Source of the DNA: Pigoraptor vietnamica
Taxonomy: Eukaryota > Opisthokonta > Filasterea
DNA length: 26,284 nucleotides
Direction of reading: 5' to 3'
NCBI GenBank assembly: GCA_943704525.1
Contig: CALSCQ010002545.1
Span: 1 to 26,284, forward strand
Shown here piece by piece: positions 1 through 23,021 of this stretch (the first letter of the stretch is position 1; the number at the start of each line of letters is the position of its first letter). The notes beneath the pieces were generated by a model, which worked only from the letters and a program-made list of their open reading frames with translations, searched no databases and was not told the origin of the DNA. The position numbers and the translations under genes were made by a program.

Positions 1-1054
1 GGGGGGGGTGGAGGGGGAAGGGGGCTGTAGACGAAACAGACGGAAACGAAGGAGCAACAATCGTCGAGAGGCAATCAACCGTCACAAAGTCGCAACGCAC
101 CGCCACAGCGCGAAGGAGCACGTCGATGCCGTCCAGCTCGCCGAGTTTGAGCCGGTTCTCTGAGATCCAAAAGAACACCGTAAGGAACACGCACACACAA
201 GCTGTATTACAATACGGTACGGGGACCGAATGGGTGCTCTGCACGTGTTCTCAGAACACAATAACAGGCCGCAGTCGGCACTCGCCTTCCGTGTTCTGGA
301 GGAGAATTGCGAGCACTTCGCTGCAGTAGAGCCGCACGGCATCGAACGCAACGCCCGCGCGAAGGCGATGCAGCATCCACGGCAGAAGGCGCGTCCGCTC
401 CACAAGAGTACCCGCAATCGACGGGCGGATCTCGACCAAGTTCTCAACGACGGCTATGACCGGGGTCGATAGTAAGCATGCATGGTAAGCAAGGAGGAAG
501 CGCGCAGGTACCAAGACGATAATTAGCATGCGTAGAAGACTGTCTTATGCTTCGCATACGTGAATTGAGGAAGAACAGCACAAAGGCATACCGAGCGTGT
601 TGTGCGCCCCGTCGTCGTCCTCACGCACACCCTCGTTGAGCCGCTCCAAGTTGCCCACGAGAGCCTCCAGCGCACTGCTCTCCATCTGCGCGAGTGTATG
701 TGTGTATGTGTGTGTGTGTGAGTGTGTGCACGTGAGCATGCATGAGTGTGTAGAGGGATGCATGCGCCAGGGGACTGTTGACAGCCACGTTCGACTGTAG
801 GGACTCTAAAGTGCAGCGGAAAGAGCCACGATGCGCGCGCACCAGTGCGTCGATGAGGGCGTCCACTTCCTCCTGGCATGACTCGATCGACTCGACGTCC
901 GTCATCTCTTGCAAGAGGTCCACAACGGCAATGCTAATATGTGCGTCACAGTCAAGGGGGCAACAGAAGAAGGCATCTCATCCAACGCACAAAGCACGCG
1001 AATGCATGCGCGCACAGACATATAGGTACACATACACATGCATACACACGCACG

Positions 1055-1097
<43 letters not shown>

Positions 1098-1993
1098 CAC
1101 ACACACACACACACGCGCGCGCGCACGGAAATGGCGGATATCGGTGTTGTCGTGCGACAAGAGCCCAATAATCGACGGAACGACGTTAAGCTGCACTAGC
1201 TCGCCGTAGAGCTCAGGCGCGGTCGAAATGACGTGCAGCCGCTGAATTTCCTCGTGCAACTCAACCTCGCTCTCCATAAATCTGATAAATGCCATCCATC
1301 ACGCACACCATTAGGACATCTCTGATAACATCAGCAGGCCACGGCAGCTCGTTATGTTAAACAGCGAAGCGCCGACCATGCGCGCACTGCCACTTGCTTG
1401 TGCGTGATGCAGCTGCGACACAACACCCACTTTTCCGGCTGATCCATGTACTTGACGCGCATCTCTTGGTTGCGGTACATCTTCTTCTCAAACGCAAGAA
1501 CGGCGCGTTTCATCGAAGCAGAGTCGAGTGCCTCGCCCTACGTGCGACACGAATGCATGCGAGGGATGTCTTCATGAGAGGCCACACAAAGGCACAGGCA
1601 TGGCGAGAAAACCAATAGAGGCGCGGCACGTGAACACACGCAACTCCATCGTCTATGAACGTTGAGAAGAGCTCAGCGAGAGCCCAAAAACCGCTTCGCC
1701 GTTCACTACAGAGTCATGCCCACCTCGGTCTCCTCCGTCTCGACCATCGCGAGGATGCGACGCCGCTCCTCCTCGCTGATGCCCGTGTCCTCCCCATGAC
1801 CGTCGTCCACCGCCGCGCGCTTGCGAGACGCGCCGTTGAGGTCTTCCACGTCGTCCTCTGCGCGGCGCTTTCCCTTGCTGCGCGTGGGTATGCCAATGGG
1901 CACCTGTGTGTGCGCGTGCGTCACTCAGTCCGACTGTGAGCACGATGCGAACGAAACACAATAAATGCCCACCGCAAACACCTCTTCCTCCAT
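1..1993 (-). CDS. CTNNBL1: Beta-catenin-like protein 1 (CTNNBL1), 3' part missing
   Basis: This is an armadillo-repeat nuclear protein of the Prp19/CDC5L spliceosome-associated complex. Exons, read leftwards: 1982-1993, 1724-1903, 1431-1537, 1142-1281, 843-940, 592-685, 286-453 and about 101-159; the rest lies off the left edge. The spliced product follows the family from its start: an acidic, basic NLS-like N-terminus (GKRRAEDD), then EKFMESEVELHEE, LLSHDNTDISIAVVDLL, NLERLNEGVREDDDGAHNTL, LYCSEVLAILLQ and GELDGIDVLL. Every junction keeps frame. The 1142/940 junction works only as an AT-AC intron, and the one after 286 as a GC-AG intron (GAAG/GCGAGT). The first exon holds only four codons (MEEE). 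The last exon's lower border is tentative. The gene is divergent from CTF8. The identity is clear from several conserved blocks in order. Confidence 0.94.
941..1141 (-). other. AT-AC, U12-type intron in CTNNBL1
   Basis: On the minus strand this 201-nt intron starts ATATCCGCC (from 1141) and ends GCAC (at 941). A CCCCTTGAC motif, matching the U12 branch-point pattern TTCCTTRAC, lies at 951-959, with its branch A 11 nt before the 3' end. Splicing G/AT restores ...HDNTD-ISIAVVD..., as in the CTNNBL1 family. No GT-AG pair I tried gives this frame. The intron also carries an (AC)n tract. Confidence 0.85.
1059..1117. repeat. (AC)n microsatellite inside the CTNNBL1 AT-AC intron
   Basis: Two AC runs (about 1059-1094 and 1100-1117) are split by a short TATC interruption and followed by a CG-rich alternating stretch. 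The tract is alternating purine-pyrimidine throughout. It lies wholly within the intron. Confidence 0.9.
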
Positions 1994-3463: not shown

Positions 3464-5398
3464 TCAGTCAAACGCCATGGCCGCGTAACCGGCGCGCATT
3501 TCGCCCAAGAAGTGGCGCGAAAGCGAGCCCACACGCGACGACCGCTCAGACGAGTCCGTACACACATAGAGAAGGCGCTGTTCGACCAGCGCGCGCCACG
3601 CCGACTCCCCTGCCCCCCTCGGAGTTCCCTTCACAGCACCGACCAGGAACGAGAGCGCCTTCGCAGAGTCTCTTGCAGGCTTTAGGCGACGCGTCCGCGT
3701 ATTCTTCTTGTCCGCCACCAGCGTCAACAGGCACCGCAGTCTGCGCAGAAGAAGCAGGCGGCCGTCGTCATTCAAGGAGCCCGGCACGGAACCAAGCGCG
3801 CCACGGTCGAGCGCGTCGGCGACCATGTCACGTGAGAGGACCATCAGAGCGACGAGCAGCGCCTCGTCCGGTGACAGGCGGTTGCCGAGCGCGCGGACGC
3901 CGTCGCGATCAAGGCGCGACAGGAAGCGCCCGCTGAATGATTTAAATGCCTCTAGCGCACGCGCCGACTTGGACCCTTCTGCCAGCGCCGTAGCGAGAGT
4001 GATGCCGAGAAACCCGGCTGCGTCGTCGAGGGAGTCCGGGCCAAGACCGCGCGCCAGTATCGCGATGAGCTTGCAGCCCGTGTCCTTCATGAACGGCGAC
4101 GCAACGTGCGCGCGCATGGGTGCATGGAGCTGCCCCGCAACAGAAAGGAAGGCGCCGTGTGCGAAAACGGAGATCTCACTCATGCTGTACATGGCCCACT
4201 GCGGGACGTCCTCGTCGGCGACGTGCGTGCGAAAGGCAGCGGCGATCAACGGCACCGCGCCGCGGTCGCATATGGCCGCCGTTGTGCTCTTGTACGCGAG
4301 CGTACCGAGCGCCGCGCACACGGACGACTGCACGTCGGCGTCGCCGGGAAACCTTGCCGCCGCCGTGAAGAGCACGTCGACGCCGCCGTTTGCAAACAGA
4401 AACTGCGCCGCTGCTTCCCCGTTGTACGCCACGTTGCACAGCGCATCGCAGCCGGTCGACTGGACGTCCGAGTCCCCCGGATGCGCGCGCATTGCCGCGA
4501 TAAGCGCGAGACAGAGCATGCCTTCCCTCTCGCCGCTCTCGAACCTCGGCGCTGCCCTCTTCGAAGCATCGACCATGTACCCGGTGACATACGCGCAGAC
4601 GGTGCGAGCGACCAGTGCGTCTCGAGCATAGCGGCGCATTGCACCAAGCACGGCGTCCGCGCCCTCGCCCGACACAACGGCGTCTACAGACGAATACACG
4701 TCCAGCACTTCGCGTAATGCGATGCAGCCGTGGGCCTGGACAAATCTTCTCCACGTGTGCCTCTTCATAGCCTCGACCGTCGCCGCGGCAAACTCGAGGG
4801 CCTCTGCCTCTTCGACGATTTTTTTCTTGGATAGCGCGTACTCTTGGAGATAACAGTCGTCCCGTACCTTCGTGAACTTCAGCGCCTTTGAAACGGCACG
4901 CATGGCGCAAGCGAGCGTGATGTCGTCGTCGCCATACTTGCGAACGATGCCCAAAACAGCAACGACGCACTGTCGCCGCACGCTCAACTGATCCGTAACG
5001 TGGATTAGTATCGCGGCCACGACAGCGCACGCGCCGCGCAGGATCTCCGTACGCTTGTCGTACAGGTTAAGAGCCTCGAGTGCCGCGTTAATGCAACCAG
5101 AGTCAAACGCATGCCGCGCTGATGGTACGTCTCGGACCAGAACGGCCAACGCCCAACACGCGGCTTCAGTCGCAGACGCGTCCGAGAGCCGCGAAGTCAA
5201 CACGCGCGCAACTTCCGCGACCGCCGCCAGCGCTGTTTCAGGTTCGCACTTGCGCGTGTCCAGCGAGAGAAATCGGTCGCTGTCGAGTGCCGTTCGGATG
5301 GCATTACAGGCGTCCCTCTGCGCGTCCGCCTCTGTTGCCTCCCGAAGCGCAGTCGTGGCCGCGTGGACGGCGCTGTCCGTGCGGCTCGAATGGGCCAT
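3464..5398 (-). CDS. Armadillo-repeat protein, single exon
   Basis: An intact 644-aa reading frame without introns, unlike nearly all its neighbours. The protein is alpha-helical and alanine-rich. The clearest ARM repeats lie at about residues 310-400, where two successive copies read VQSTGCDALCNVAYN...GGVDVL and VQSSVCAALGTLAYK...GAVPLI, the classic AL-NLA-N...GA---L pattern. Weaker copies flank them. There is no signal peptide, no clear membrane segment and no other domain I can name. ARM proteins serve as binding scaffolds; I cannot name the partner. The start MAHSSRTD has a good context (GACGCCATGG), and a 115-bp CA/TG repeat lies 18 bp upstream. An out-of-frame ATG 14 bases upstream (5410-5412) opens a 71-codon frame that overlaps the start. 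An orthologue cannot be assigned from sequence alone. Confidence 0.85.
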   Translation of the reverse strand: MAHSSRTDSAVHAATTALREATEADAQRDACNAIRTALDSDRFLSLDTRKCEPETALAAVAEVARVLTSRLSDASATEAACWALAVLVRDVPSARHAFDSGCINAALEALNLYDKRTEILRGACAVVAAILIHVTDQLSVRRQCVVAVLGIVRKYGDDDITLACAMRAVSKALKFTKVRDDCYLQEYALSKKKIVEEAEALEFAAATVEAMKRHTWRRFVQAHGCIALREVLDVYSSVDAVVSGEGADAVLGAMRRYARDALVARTVCAYVTGYMVDASKRAAPRFESGEREGMLCLALIAAMRAHPGDSDVQSTGCDALCNVAYNGEAAAQFLFANGGVDVLFTAAARFPGDADVQSSVCAALGTLAYKSTTAAICDRGAVPLIAAAFRTHVADEDVPQWAMYSMSEISVFAHGAFLSVAGQLHAPMRAHVASPFMKDTGCKLIAILARGLGPDSLDDAAGFLGITLATALAEGSKSARALEAFKSFSGRFLSRLDRDGVRALGNRLSPDEALLVALMVLSRDMVADALDRGALGSVPGSLNDDGRLLLLRRLRCLLTLVADKKNTRTRRLKPARDSAKALSFLVGAVKGTPRGAGESAWRALVEQRLLYVCTDSSERSSRVGSLSRHFLGEMRAGYAAMAFD

Positions 5399-9760
<4,362 letters not shown>

Positions 9761-12513: not shown

Positions 12514-13716
12514 ATGAGGTGATTGTCTCTGGCAGAGTGAGGATGAGGAGGATGGATTGATGTCCAATAGAAGACTCTAGCGGTCGTCGATTTGCTTTGA
12601 CGATTACGCGGTTGAATTCCGCGGCCAATTTGTCCGTTTGGGAGCACATGGGAGTTTCTTCGTAGTGTTGGGTCCGCCACGAGTGATTCTTTCATAGTAT
12701 GTGGTTGCATTCGTCTCGTCATGAGTTGCTATGTGGGTTGTCGCACGTGCTGACGGCCCTTGTGTGTGCCGTGCGAATCCGCAGCAAGATCACGCGTGAT
12801 GCTCTGTACGAGGCTGTCCGCGATGTCCTCAAGGGCTCGCAGGACAAGAAGCGCAAGTTCACGGAGACGGTCGAGCTCCAGATCGGCCTCAAGAACTACG
12901 ACCCCCAGAAGGACAAGCGTTTCAGCGGCACTGTTGCGTGAGTGTCGCGCGTGGGATGCGGTTCTATTCGTGCATGAGGTTGTCATATACGTCTAGCCTG
13001 TGTGGGGAGTTGCACTTGCGGGTTGGCATTGCGTTCCGTTATTGAATGTGCAATGTGTGGGTTTGTTTGTTATCGTGTATGCGCACTGGCACAACGCACC
13101 CCAAACGCCTGTGCGCAGCGTTCGCTCTTTGCAATGTTTTCCTCACGGAAATGGACTGTTGAACTCTGTCGTGTATATGTCGAACTGCTCGTTGACCGTT
13201 GCGTCGTGTTGCCAACTCGGCAGGCTCGCCAACGTCCCCAAGCCCAAGATGCGCATCTGCGTGATGGGCGACCAGGCGCACTGCGACGAGGCCAAGGCGC
13301 TCGACGTGCCCTTCATGAACGTGGAGGACCTCAAGAAGCTCAACAAGAACAAGAAGCTCATTAAGAAGCTCGCCAAGAAGTACGACGCCTTCCTCGCGTC
13401 CGAGTCGATCATCAAGCAGATCCCGCGTCTCCTCGGCCCCGGCCTCAACAAGGCCGGCAAGTTCCCCTCGCTCCTCACGCACAGCGAGAGCCTCGCCGAC
13501 AAGATCCGCGAGACGAAGAGCACGATCAAGTTCCAGATGAAGAAGGTGCTCTGCCTCGGCGTCGCCGTCGGCCACGTCGGCATGAGCGAGGACGAGCTCG
13601 CCCAGAACACGCTCCTCTCGGTCAACTTCCTCGTCTCGCTCCTCAAGAAGAACTGGCAGAACATCCGCTCGCTCTACATCAAGAGCACGATGGGCAAGCC
13701 CCAGCGCCTCTACTAA
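12514..13716 (+). CDS. RPL10A: 60S ribosomal protein uL1 (L10a)
   Basis: A component of the L1 stalk of the large ribosomal subunit, which moves with the E-site tRNA. Three exons, 12514-12518, 12785-12937 and 13224-13716, give 216 aa (human 217). Exon 1 codes only ATG-AG; the split serine codon is completed by exon 2 to read [13 protein letters not shown], as in the family. Splice sites: AG/GTGATT...CCGCAG/C and GC/GTGAGT...GGCAG/G. Conserved blocks: [79 protein letters not shown] and the terminal [13 protein letters not shown]. Exon 3 is strongly biased to C-ending codons, as in highly expressed genes. An ATG at 12699 could also be spliced in frame (MCKITRD) but fits the family start less well. 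Confidence 0.97.
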
Positions 13717-20522: not shown

Positions 20523-21059
20523 ATGTGGCTGTACGCGATTCTCTTCGTCGTTGTTGTGTACCTGGGCATCCTTCTCTGGCCCACGCCGCAACACAAGGCG
20601 ACATCGCTCGACAACTACATTGCCGACCCCAACAGCACGGCCGCGGATGCCGAGCCGGACGATGACGACGACGCGGGTGAGTGCCGATCTCTTATGTTTG
20701 GGCAGCAGTTGCGTTTGAATCTGTTCTGCCAGTCGCATCGTTCGGTTGTTACGTGTCGGTATGCTCTTTATTTTCATTAATCTGGCTAATTCGATCCCTC
20801 CAGAGCTGGCCAAGTACCGGCGCGTGTTCACCACGCCCGGCAAGCAGGTGCTCATTCTCTTTGGGACCGAGTACGGCTTCTCGGAGGACGTTGCGCGCCG
20901 CCTGCACGACGCCATGGAGCCCCTCGAGGCGGACGGCGTTCAGCCGCGCATTGTTAACATGAAGAACTTCTCGATCGTCGACTTCAAGCGCGAGCAGGTG
21001 CGTGCATCACGAAAGCGCGTGCATTCAAGCGGCACACTTTACTTACTGCCATGTCTGTA

Positions 21060-21112
<53 letters not shown>

Positions 21113-23021
21113 GTGTGTGTGTGTGCGTGTGTGTGTCGCAGGCCGTTCTCATCGTGTGCTCCACGACCGGCGACGGCGTCCCACCGACCGACGCGCGCGA
21201 TTTCTTCGCCGCAGTGACGTCACGCAAGATCGGCAACCTGTCCCACATCTCTTATTCTGTCCTTGCGCTCGGCGACAAGGGCTACCCGCACTACTGCCGC
21301 GCGGGTCGCCTGCTTGACGAGAAGTTGGAGGGCCTCGGGGCGCGCCGGCTTGCGAAGCGCGTGGACGTCGACCAGGAAGACTTTGCGGCGATCGACGCGT
21401 GGGCTTCGACCGTCGTCGCCGCGCTCCCCTCGCTTGGCCTTTCTGAGCGCATCGATTATATGGACGTCGGCGCGTGTGCGGACGAGTCCGGGTGGGGACG
21501 GACCAACCCGTTCTGGGCGAAGATTGCCGTCAAGCGGGATCTCTGCACGGCGGGCGAGGAACGGCAGGTCGTGCACGTGGAATTTGAGCTTGCGGAGAGC
21601 GGGATCGAGTACACTCCCGGCGACTCGCTGGGCATTTATCCGGAGAACAACCCGCCGGAGGTGGACGCGCTGCTGCGTGCGATGAAGGCCACGGGGGACG
21701 AGACGGTCTCGGCGCCCACGAACTGCTACGACCCGCGGATTGGACGGAAGGAGAAGATGCCGCTGCGCACGGCCCTCACGCGCTTTTACGACCTCAAGAC
21801 GGTCAAGCCCGAGCTGATCCGCATGCTCACGCCCATGTCGCGTGACAGGAGGGACAGCGACAAGGGCCGCGCGCTGCTCGCCGACGGGCAGTCGGTCGCG
21901 TCGAACGCTACCCTCCGCGATTACCTCGAAGTCCGCGAGGTGCGTTTGGGATTGTGATGATCTGTTCGGTTTTATATATATATTTTAGACCATTCGGGGA
22001 TGATATGTATAATTTATCGTTCCTTCAGCCACACGTGTGGCCATACCTTACCTGTTCCAAGCGTTGCTCTCACACGCTTCCGTTTACCTCACAGGTTGCC
22101 GACGTGCTCTGCGATTTCCCGAGCGCTCGCGCCGACCACACGGATGTCCTTCCCAACATGCGGCTCTTGCAGCCGCGCTACTACAGCATTTCCTCGGCGC
22201 AGTCGGTCTGCGGCACGCGTGTCTCCGTCACGGCCGCCGTCGTGCGCTATGAGACGCTCGGCAAGCCCCGCACGGGCGTGTGCACGACGCACATGCAGGA
22301 CAGGCGCGCCGTGGGCGACGAGTGCCCCGTGTTTGTGGGCAAGAACCCCGAGTTTCGCCTGCCGGTCGACGGCACCATCCCCATCATCATGGTCGGTCCA
22401 GGCACGGGCCTGGCGCCGTTCCGCGCATTCCTGCAGGAGCGCAAGGTGCGCGGCGCGACGGGAGAGAACCTCCTGTACTTTGGATGCCGCGACCGCAACA
22501 AGGACTTTCTGTACCGGTCGGAGCTGGAGGCCCTCGAGCGGGTGAGTGGGAGTATGGGCGTGGTGTGTGCTTCCTTCAGCTGATCCCGATGGTCCCTCTC
22601 CCTCGCAGGAGGGCAAGGTGATTTTGAGGACGGCATTTTCGCGGGAGGCTGGGCAGAAGAAGGTGTACGTGCAGCATCTGCTCAAGCAGGACGGCGAGCG
22701 CGTGTGGTCGCTCCTCCAGGTGCGGCGCTTTGGGATCCGCTTGCCTTTTCTGCCATTTGTTTGACGATTTTCATGGCGTCTGTCGTGTTTTCTTTGCTCG
22801 ATTCCCTCGTATGCTGATCGGTTCCTTTTCCCCTGGCTCTTTTGTAGCGCGGGGCGCACTTTTACGTGTGCGGCGACGCCAAGAACATGGCGGGCGACGT
22901 CCACGAGGCACTGATCGAGCTCGTCGTGGCAAAGAAGGGGTGCTCGCGGGAACACGCTGAGGCCTTCATCGACGATCTGGAAAGCAACAAGCGCTACCAG
23001 CGGGACGTGTGGGTCACATAA
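20523..23021 (+). CDS. NADPH-cytochrome P450 reductase-like diflavin reductase
   Basis: A protein that carries electrons from NADPH through FAD and FMN to haem or other acceptors. Six exons: 20523-20676, 20804-20997, 21142-21939, 22095-22541, 22609-22719 and 22848-23021. They give 625 aa. Residues 2-19 are an N-terminal membrane anchor, followed by an acidic hinge (DDDDD). The FMN domain has LFGTEYGFSEDVA (70-82), VLIVCSTTGDGVPP and LALGDKGYPHYC. The FAD site is RYYSISSA (410-417). NADPH motifs are VGPGTGLAPFRAFLQER, LYFGCRDRNKDFLY and FYVCGDAKNMAGDVHEAL. The tail RYQRDVWVT keeps the aromatic Trp that stacks on FAD. The membrane anchor favours cytochrome P450 reductase over sulfite or methionine-synthase reductases, though the FMN domain is compact. 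It is head to head with an ER flavoprotein. Confidence 0.92.
21062..21136. repeat. (GT)n microsatellite in intron 2 of the diflavin reductase gene
   Basis: A GT tract of about 75 bp with two GC interruptions. It runs to the 3' splice site (GTGTGTGTCGCAG/GCC), replacing most of a usual polypyrimidine tract. Confidence 0.96.

Follow-up and report, generated by a model that had tools for sequence, protein, structure and literature searches.

A U12-type AT-AC intron in CTNNBL1 of Pigoraptor vietnamica with an unusual donor and a partly matching U6atac

Introduction

In the filasterean Pigoraptor vietnamica the CTNNBL1 gene is interrupted by a 201-nt segment that begins with AT and ends with AC, which raises the question of which spliceosome would remove it and why its donor reads ATATCCGCC instead of ATATCCTTT, a departure at +7 to +9 from the general consensus. 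The signals of U12-type introns are described as more conserved than their U2 counterparts, with a consensus given as RTATCCTTT / TCCTTAAC and a RTATCCTT rule (PMC2846911). Since human CTNNBL1 is already known to carry a U12-type intron (PMC3564746, PMC8329584), the intron by itself would be of a known kind. We analysed the segment within a window of 26,284 nt (the whole of the stretch examined, positions 1 to 26,284 of contig CALSCQ010002545.1 in assembly GCA_943704525.1) and followed its signals through the genome of about 32.5 Mb (32,526,649 bases in 1395 contigs).

Results

The AT-AC segment of CTNNBL1

The identification of the gene, proposed in an initial annotation made from the sequence alone, was borne out by a Pfam CTNNBL match of 220.3 bits (cut-off 27) in its reconstructed central part and by a match of the reconstructed protein to solved beta-catenin-like protein 1 chains in the PDB (1.9e-59), which we take to be human. 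The features of the gene are as follows.

101..1993, minus strand: CTNNBL1 from the start codon to the last exon present; the gene continues past the window edge, and borders besides those of the U12-type intron were set mostly by eye
1142..1281, minus strand: upstream exon, ...FMESEVELHEEIQ...SHDNT+D; exon start set by eye
941..1141, minus strand: almost certainly a U12-type AT-AC intron, 201 nt, phase 1; from sequence, frame and protein match
1133..1141, minus strand: 5' splice site ATATCCGCC, with AT at 1141-1140
1041..1126, minus strand: GT-rich run within the intron, a source of in-frame GT donors; limits by eye
951..959, minus strand: branch-site motif CCCCTTGAC, whose A (952) lies 11 nt from the end of the intron; from sequence
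941..942, minus strand: 3' splice site AC; from sequence
843..940, minus strand: downstream exon, ISIAVVDLLQEMTD...LIDAL; from sequence and protein match

With position 1142 spliced to 940 the protein reads HDNTD-ISIAVVDLLQEMTD, and its alignment to HDNTDVSIAVVDLLQELTD of the beta-catenin-like protein 1 chains is ungapped at the junction, so that the proposed borders (AT at 1141-1140, AC at 942-941) are exactly in frame. The accompanying claim that no GT-AG pair keeps the frame proved wrong: our enumeration of intron borders found 25 GT-AG pairs, 11 GC-AG pairs and 14 AT-AC pairs, 1141/941 among the latter, that keep the frame and are free of stops, many of the in-frame GT donors coming from the GT-rich run. 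Only 1141/941 inserts no residues, whereas the GT-AG pairs each add at least 8, the GC-AG pairs at least 4 and the other AT-AC pairs at least 2. The in-frame GT-AG and GC-AG pairs would allow the segment to be spliced as a U2-type intron, or as a twintron with both, adding residues to an armadillo repeat, and nested U2/U12 use has been reported for human CTNNBL1 (PMC3564746, PMC8329584). Every such product, however, adds at least 4 residues in a conserved stretch, and the shortest GT-AG product, the one that we tested, scores 91.4 bits against Pfam CTNNBL compared with 103.8 bits when 1141/941 is removed; we therefore consider U2-type or twintron splicing very improbable.

The signals of the segment point to the minor class. 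The termini and core (ATATCC...AC) follow the AT-AC and RTATCC pattern, and a branch motif resembling TCCTTRAC lies at the expected spacing: CCCCTTGAC matches TTCCTTRAC at 7 of 9 positions, has a predicted pairing with U12 of -6.2 kcal/mol, and places its A at a distance of 11 nt from the last base of the intron, as first annotated. The branch A of U12-type introns typically precedes the 3' end by about 10-13 nt. The full donor RTATCCTTT is not found, GCC standing at +7 to +9, a difference on which the initial annotation is silent; as that consensus comes from other species, the intron was kept as a variant and not excluded. The signals had been called independent of one another and of the protein alignment, and this holds only in part, as an ATAT repeat serves donor and reading frame alike. 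ATAT at both intron ends leaves five equivalent cuts by sequence alone, and known termini result from the AT-AC cut only. Motifs by themselves are weak evidence, TTCCTTRAC followed by AC occurring at 81 places in the genome versus 121 for a reversed control, and it is their combination with frame and homology that carries the case. On these grounds we regard the minus-strand segment from 1141 to 941, with near certainty, as a U12-type AT-AC intron.

Several other features were observed in the window. A neighbouring CTNNBL1 intron (285-160, minus strand) is apparently GC-AG, with the donor GCGAGT (by eye). Pfam matches identify an ARM-repeat protein (3467-5530, minus strand), a class II (alanyl) tRNA synthetase (7540-9189, minus strand), a member of the ribosomal protein L1 family (12997-13713, plus strand) and a flavodoxin/FAD/NAD-binding reductase (20719-22580, plus strand). 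Long GT/CA runs occur in many places.

Further U12-type introns in the genome

With YAG in place of AC, the strict branch motif occurs at 39 places versus 67 for the reversed control, and because the controls outnumber the motif for both endings, motif counts alone show no excess. At all 81 and 39 places we looked for an RTATC donor such that coding sequence flanked the putative intron on either side; the scan ignored bases after +5, and the shorter stretches cover at most about 700 nt upstream. Among 40 pairs with an RTATC donor and the strict branch motif, 18 scored above 1.5, of which 12 were accepted and 6 dropped. Permuted donor motifs also yielded candidates (4 to 15 above 1.5 out of 17 to 82 pairs, on coding score only, the homology test being applied to the RTATC set), which makes the coding score weak by itself. 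The accepted set comprises 16 introns, namely that of CTNNBL1, which has a weaker branch motif and entered as the starting finding, and 15 further ones. A Pfam or PDB alignment spans the junction in 15 of the 16, the exception being L021, and length differences at the junction range from none to 5 residues as given here.

L022: SGF29; alignment spans the junction, no length difference
L023: PIH1; score 0.9, accepted on homology across the junction
L033: cation ATPase; alignment spans the junction, no length difference
L060: PDE; Pfam or PDB alignment spans the junction
L092: SHQ1; Pfam or PDB alignment spans the junction
L043: CSL4; Pfam or PDB alignment spans the junction
L082: urocanase; alignment spans the junction, no length difference
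L089: RasGEF; alignment spans the junction, no length difference
L112: CNH-domain protein; alignment spans the junction, no length difference
L037: LSG1; Pfam or PDB alignment spans the junction
L049: CYFIP; Pfam or PDB alignment spans the junction
L070: UBL5; supported by the PDB, Pfam match under its cut-off
L183: RFWD3; score -1.8, Pfam or PDB match over the junction
L040: MCM-binding protein; score 0.1, Pfam or PDB match over the junction with a length difference of 5 residues, the largest in the set
L021: weakly AMTP2-like; PDB match gapped (E 0.046), donor ATATCCTTT

The gene at L021 shows a weak similarity to the PDB chains AMTP2/Ptep2, presumably a subunit of a DNA adenine methyltransferase found in ciliates. 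When L040 and L183 were tested, the GC pattern described below was already known, and L041 and L111, tested alongside, both failed; this late testing leans towards GC, so counts are also given without them. L029 (donor ATATCCTTT) and L041 were dropped as they matched no family, and L111 failed the homology test. Of the six dropped, the homology search covered L029 and L041; the other four were two candidates in L035, one in L083 and one in L070 that came from a second pairing. Rows with longer introns or weaker branch motifs, as well as L081, were left out of the accepted set.

The shifted donor

Across the 16 accepted introns the donor has A (7) or G (9) at +1, C at +5 in all, C (15) or T (1) at +6, G (13), T (2) or C (1) at +7, C (15) or T (1) at +8 and C (8), T (5), G (2) or A (1) at +9. 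Of the 16 introns, 13 have GC at +7/+8, whereas among the remaining 165 distinct RTATCY contexts 33 do (Fisher 1.3e-6), which makes 46 of 181 in total in the DNA examined; the background loci were chosen by branch motif or promoter element and may include more true donors. Without L040 and L183 the proportions are 11 of 14 versus 35 of 167 (p 2.1e-5), and with the dropped L029 included the figure would be 13 of 17. TT at +7/+8 occurs among the accepted introns in L021 alone, which keeps ATATCCTTT. The unusual donor of CTNNBL1 is thus common to most U12-type introns found in this genome.

Such a shift could have arisen around true U12-type introns by independent drift of the donors at +7 to +9 and of U6atac in a GC-rich genome in which their pairing is no longer important. 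The GC content of about 59% (mean over the window rows) and the GC following RTATCY at 33 of 165 background sites agree with drift, but the change is base-specific, with G over C by 13 to 1 at +7 (p 0.002) and C over G by 15 to 0 at +8 (p 6e-5).

Minor spliceosomal snRNA genes

Rfam model searches of the genome identified one gene each for U12 (73.8 bits, cut-off 53), which retains the stretch GAGTAAGGAAAA, U4atac (64.0 bits, cut-off 53) and U6atac (81.4 bits, cut-off 33), and none of the three models matched in any of 14 control genomes. A DNA search of the genome gave no second U6atac. The element GTCCCAYAAG lies 67-72 nt upstream of all three genes and also precedes U2, U1 and U5, which were reached through it (125.7, 100.1 and 78.3 bits, respectively). 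U4atac and U6atac can form an unbroken predicted duplex of 17 bp (-31.1 kcal/mol) and, given this duplex and the promoter element common with U12, U2, U1 and U5, both genes look functional.

The element occurs at 78 sites in the genome versus 49 for its reversed control, and the RNAs recognised there with Rfam are U1, U2, U5, U12, U4atac, U6atac and two Y-like RNAs. The latter are small RNAs with the promoter element and a TATATAAGG box: one (L097, 278-351, minus strand) matches nematode sb-RNA RF01656 with 41.4 bits (cut-off 38), and the other (L103, 270-350, minus strand) scores 28.5 bits against RF01656 and 29.7 bits against Y RNA RF00019, under the cut-off of 38. A further match behind the element, to Afu_182 (L120, 24-240, minus strand), has 36 bits, under the cut-off of 65.

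U6atac and its pairing with the donors

Relative to the Rfam consensus, U6atac carries A12G, A13C and G14C, changing GUGUUGUAUGAAAGGAGAGAAGG to GUGUUGUAUGAGCCGAGAGAAGG, so that its 5'-site-binding stretch is AGCCGA, not AAAGGA. In a register that we assume from the known interaction, with +4U opposite A16, C13 and G12 of U6atac complement +7G and +8C of the donor, and C14 opposes the kept +6C. Over the 16 donors, Watson-Crick pairs at +4 to +9 in this assumed register number 65 of 96 with the species' own U6atac and 55 of 96 with the consensus U6atac. At +6, C would face C14 and is paired in none of the 16 donors, G14C being anti-complementary. Duplex energy was discarded as support for co-evolution, since of the 14 donors compared no more than 6 had a better RNAduplex energy with the own than with the consensus U6atac, no improvement overall.

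The misfit of G14C and the duplex energies both speak for drift. Against it, positions 12-14 are written in capitals in the Rfam U6atac consensus, and two of the three substitutions there match the shifted donor; together with the choice of bases at +7 and +8 this makes independent drift, to our minds, unlikely. The pairing argument is partial, with 2 of 3 substitutions fitting, and co-evolution of the donors with U6atac appears likely, though not proven.

U11

The Rfam U11 model matched nothing in the genome at E<=0.001 or E<=10 (39 of 1226 first-look candidates scored), which does not show that the RNA is absent because at E<=0.001 the model matched in no genome at all. No U11 RNA was found among the 78 GTCCCAYAAG sites compared with Rfam, 77 of them in full and one in part, or among 14 stretches with the promoter element and a predicted 5' end GCGG, and TTTTTG behind the element gave U2 and U4atac. 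A candidate for a U11 protein was found as follows.

L184, 1294-2745, plus strand: U11-48K-like open reading frame, 483 aa, with a CHHC zinc finger and RDYKRRRQ further on

The zinc finger scores 28.2 bits (cut-off 21.1; 2 of 14 prokaryote control genomes matched, 1 of them over the cut-off). In the PDB the U11-48K chain 8r7n_F matches best (2.7e-4 for the entire sequence, both motifs in order); taken singly, the zinc finger and RDYKRRRQ match it weakly (i-E 43 and 0.13, respectively). The second match is gametocyte-specific factor 1 (0.0041), and a PWI match lies under its cut-off. On this weaker evidence we call the protein U11-48K-like.

These data also bear on whether the shift was driven by U11, its 5' end having changed to pair with CCGCC and U6atac having followed or tolerating the result. 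The donors keep +5C and +6C though +6C has no partner in C14 of U6atac, as though these bases were held by a different RNA, and a U11-48K-like protein is present. The genome searches did not find a U11 RNA, however, and hence provide no 5' end to compare. A shift led by U11 is thus a possible account but a doubtful one.

Discussion

The CTNNBL1 intron is a real instance of a known intron class whose donor is unusual and whose U6atac partly matches. We propose, with a probability of roughly 0.78, that the segment is a minor-class intron and that the donors of this lineage moved from RTATCCTTT to RTATCCGCC with U6atac changed alongside. The borders and motifs, the continuity of the protein, the donor counts over the 16 introns, the substitutions in U6atac and the genes for three minor snRNAs, all from one species, support this explanation. 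The intron would be removed by the U11/U12-U4atac/U6atac.U5 spliceosome, with donor and branch site recognised by U11/U12 and U11 then replaced by U6atac, in the order that has been described (PMC3584512). On this proposal A13C of U6atac would pair with +7G and A12G with +8C, and +4U and +5C would still pair with A16 and G15. As +5C and +6C are kept while U6atac cannot pair with +6C, we infer that U11 pairs with CC, its 5' end having changed to suit CCGCC and holding +6C. We lean, with less confidence, towards the broader reading that the lineage rewrote its minor 5' splice-site code to RTATCCGCC by concerted change of the donors throughout the genome and of U6atac (12G and 13C), probably with a matching U11, the pair at +6 being given up.

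A donor of the RTATCCGCC type does not appear in the available text of a pan-eukaryotic survey (PMC10639083), nor was it reported in the titles and abstract openings among the matches listed in our literature search (supplements and figures lay outside its scope), and six spellings of the donor as whole words gave no literature match. Programs that find U12-type introns use rules or matrices akin to RTATCCTT and would probably undercount the introns of an RTATCCGCC lineage. Such a lineage would also be a natural test of which 5'-site pairs are needed, with +7 and +8 re-paired and +6 apparently unpaired with U6atac. Incorvaia and Padgett, in 1998, reportedly tested the base pairing of U6atac with the 5' site in cells; the logic is the same, but the changes there were engineered and here they would be natural.

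Compared with known systems, vertebrate CTNNBL1 has a U12-type intron in the same gene (PMC3564746), while at +7 to +9 the donor here departs from the general consensus. Textbook U12-type introns are alike in the RTATCC core, the branch motif, its spacing and the AT-AC or GT-AG ends, but the RTATCCTT rule (PMC2846911) is broken by 15 of the 16 donors described here. The U12 introns of Acanthamoeba castellanii likewise show a species-specific C-rich stretch beside the 5' consensus, although there it lies downstream of a consensus donor and the available part of that account describes no snRNA change (PMC2846911). A possibly transformed minor system has been noted in Cyanophora, with Physarum regarded as exceptional (PMC10639083). 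Physarum polycephalum, too, is a protist whose minor splicing system is altered (PMC10639083, PMC8329584), but it has more than 20,000 minor introns (PMC8329584).
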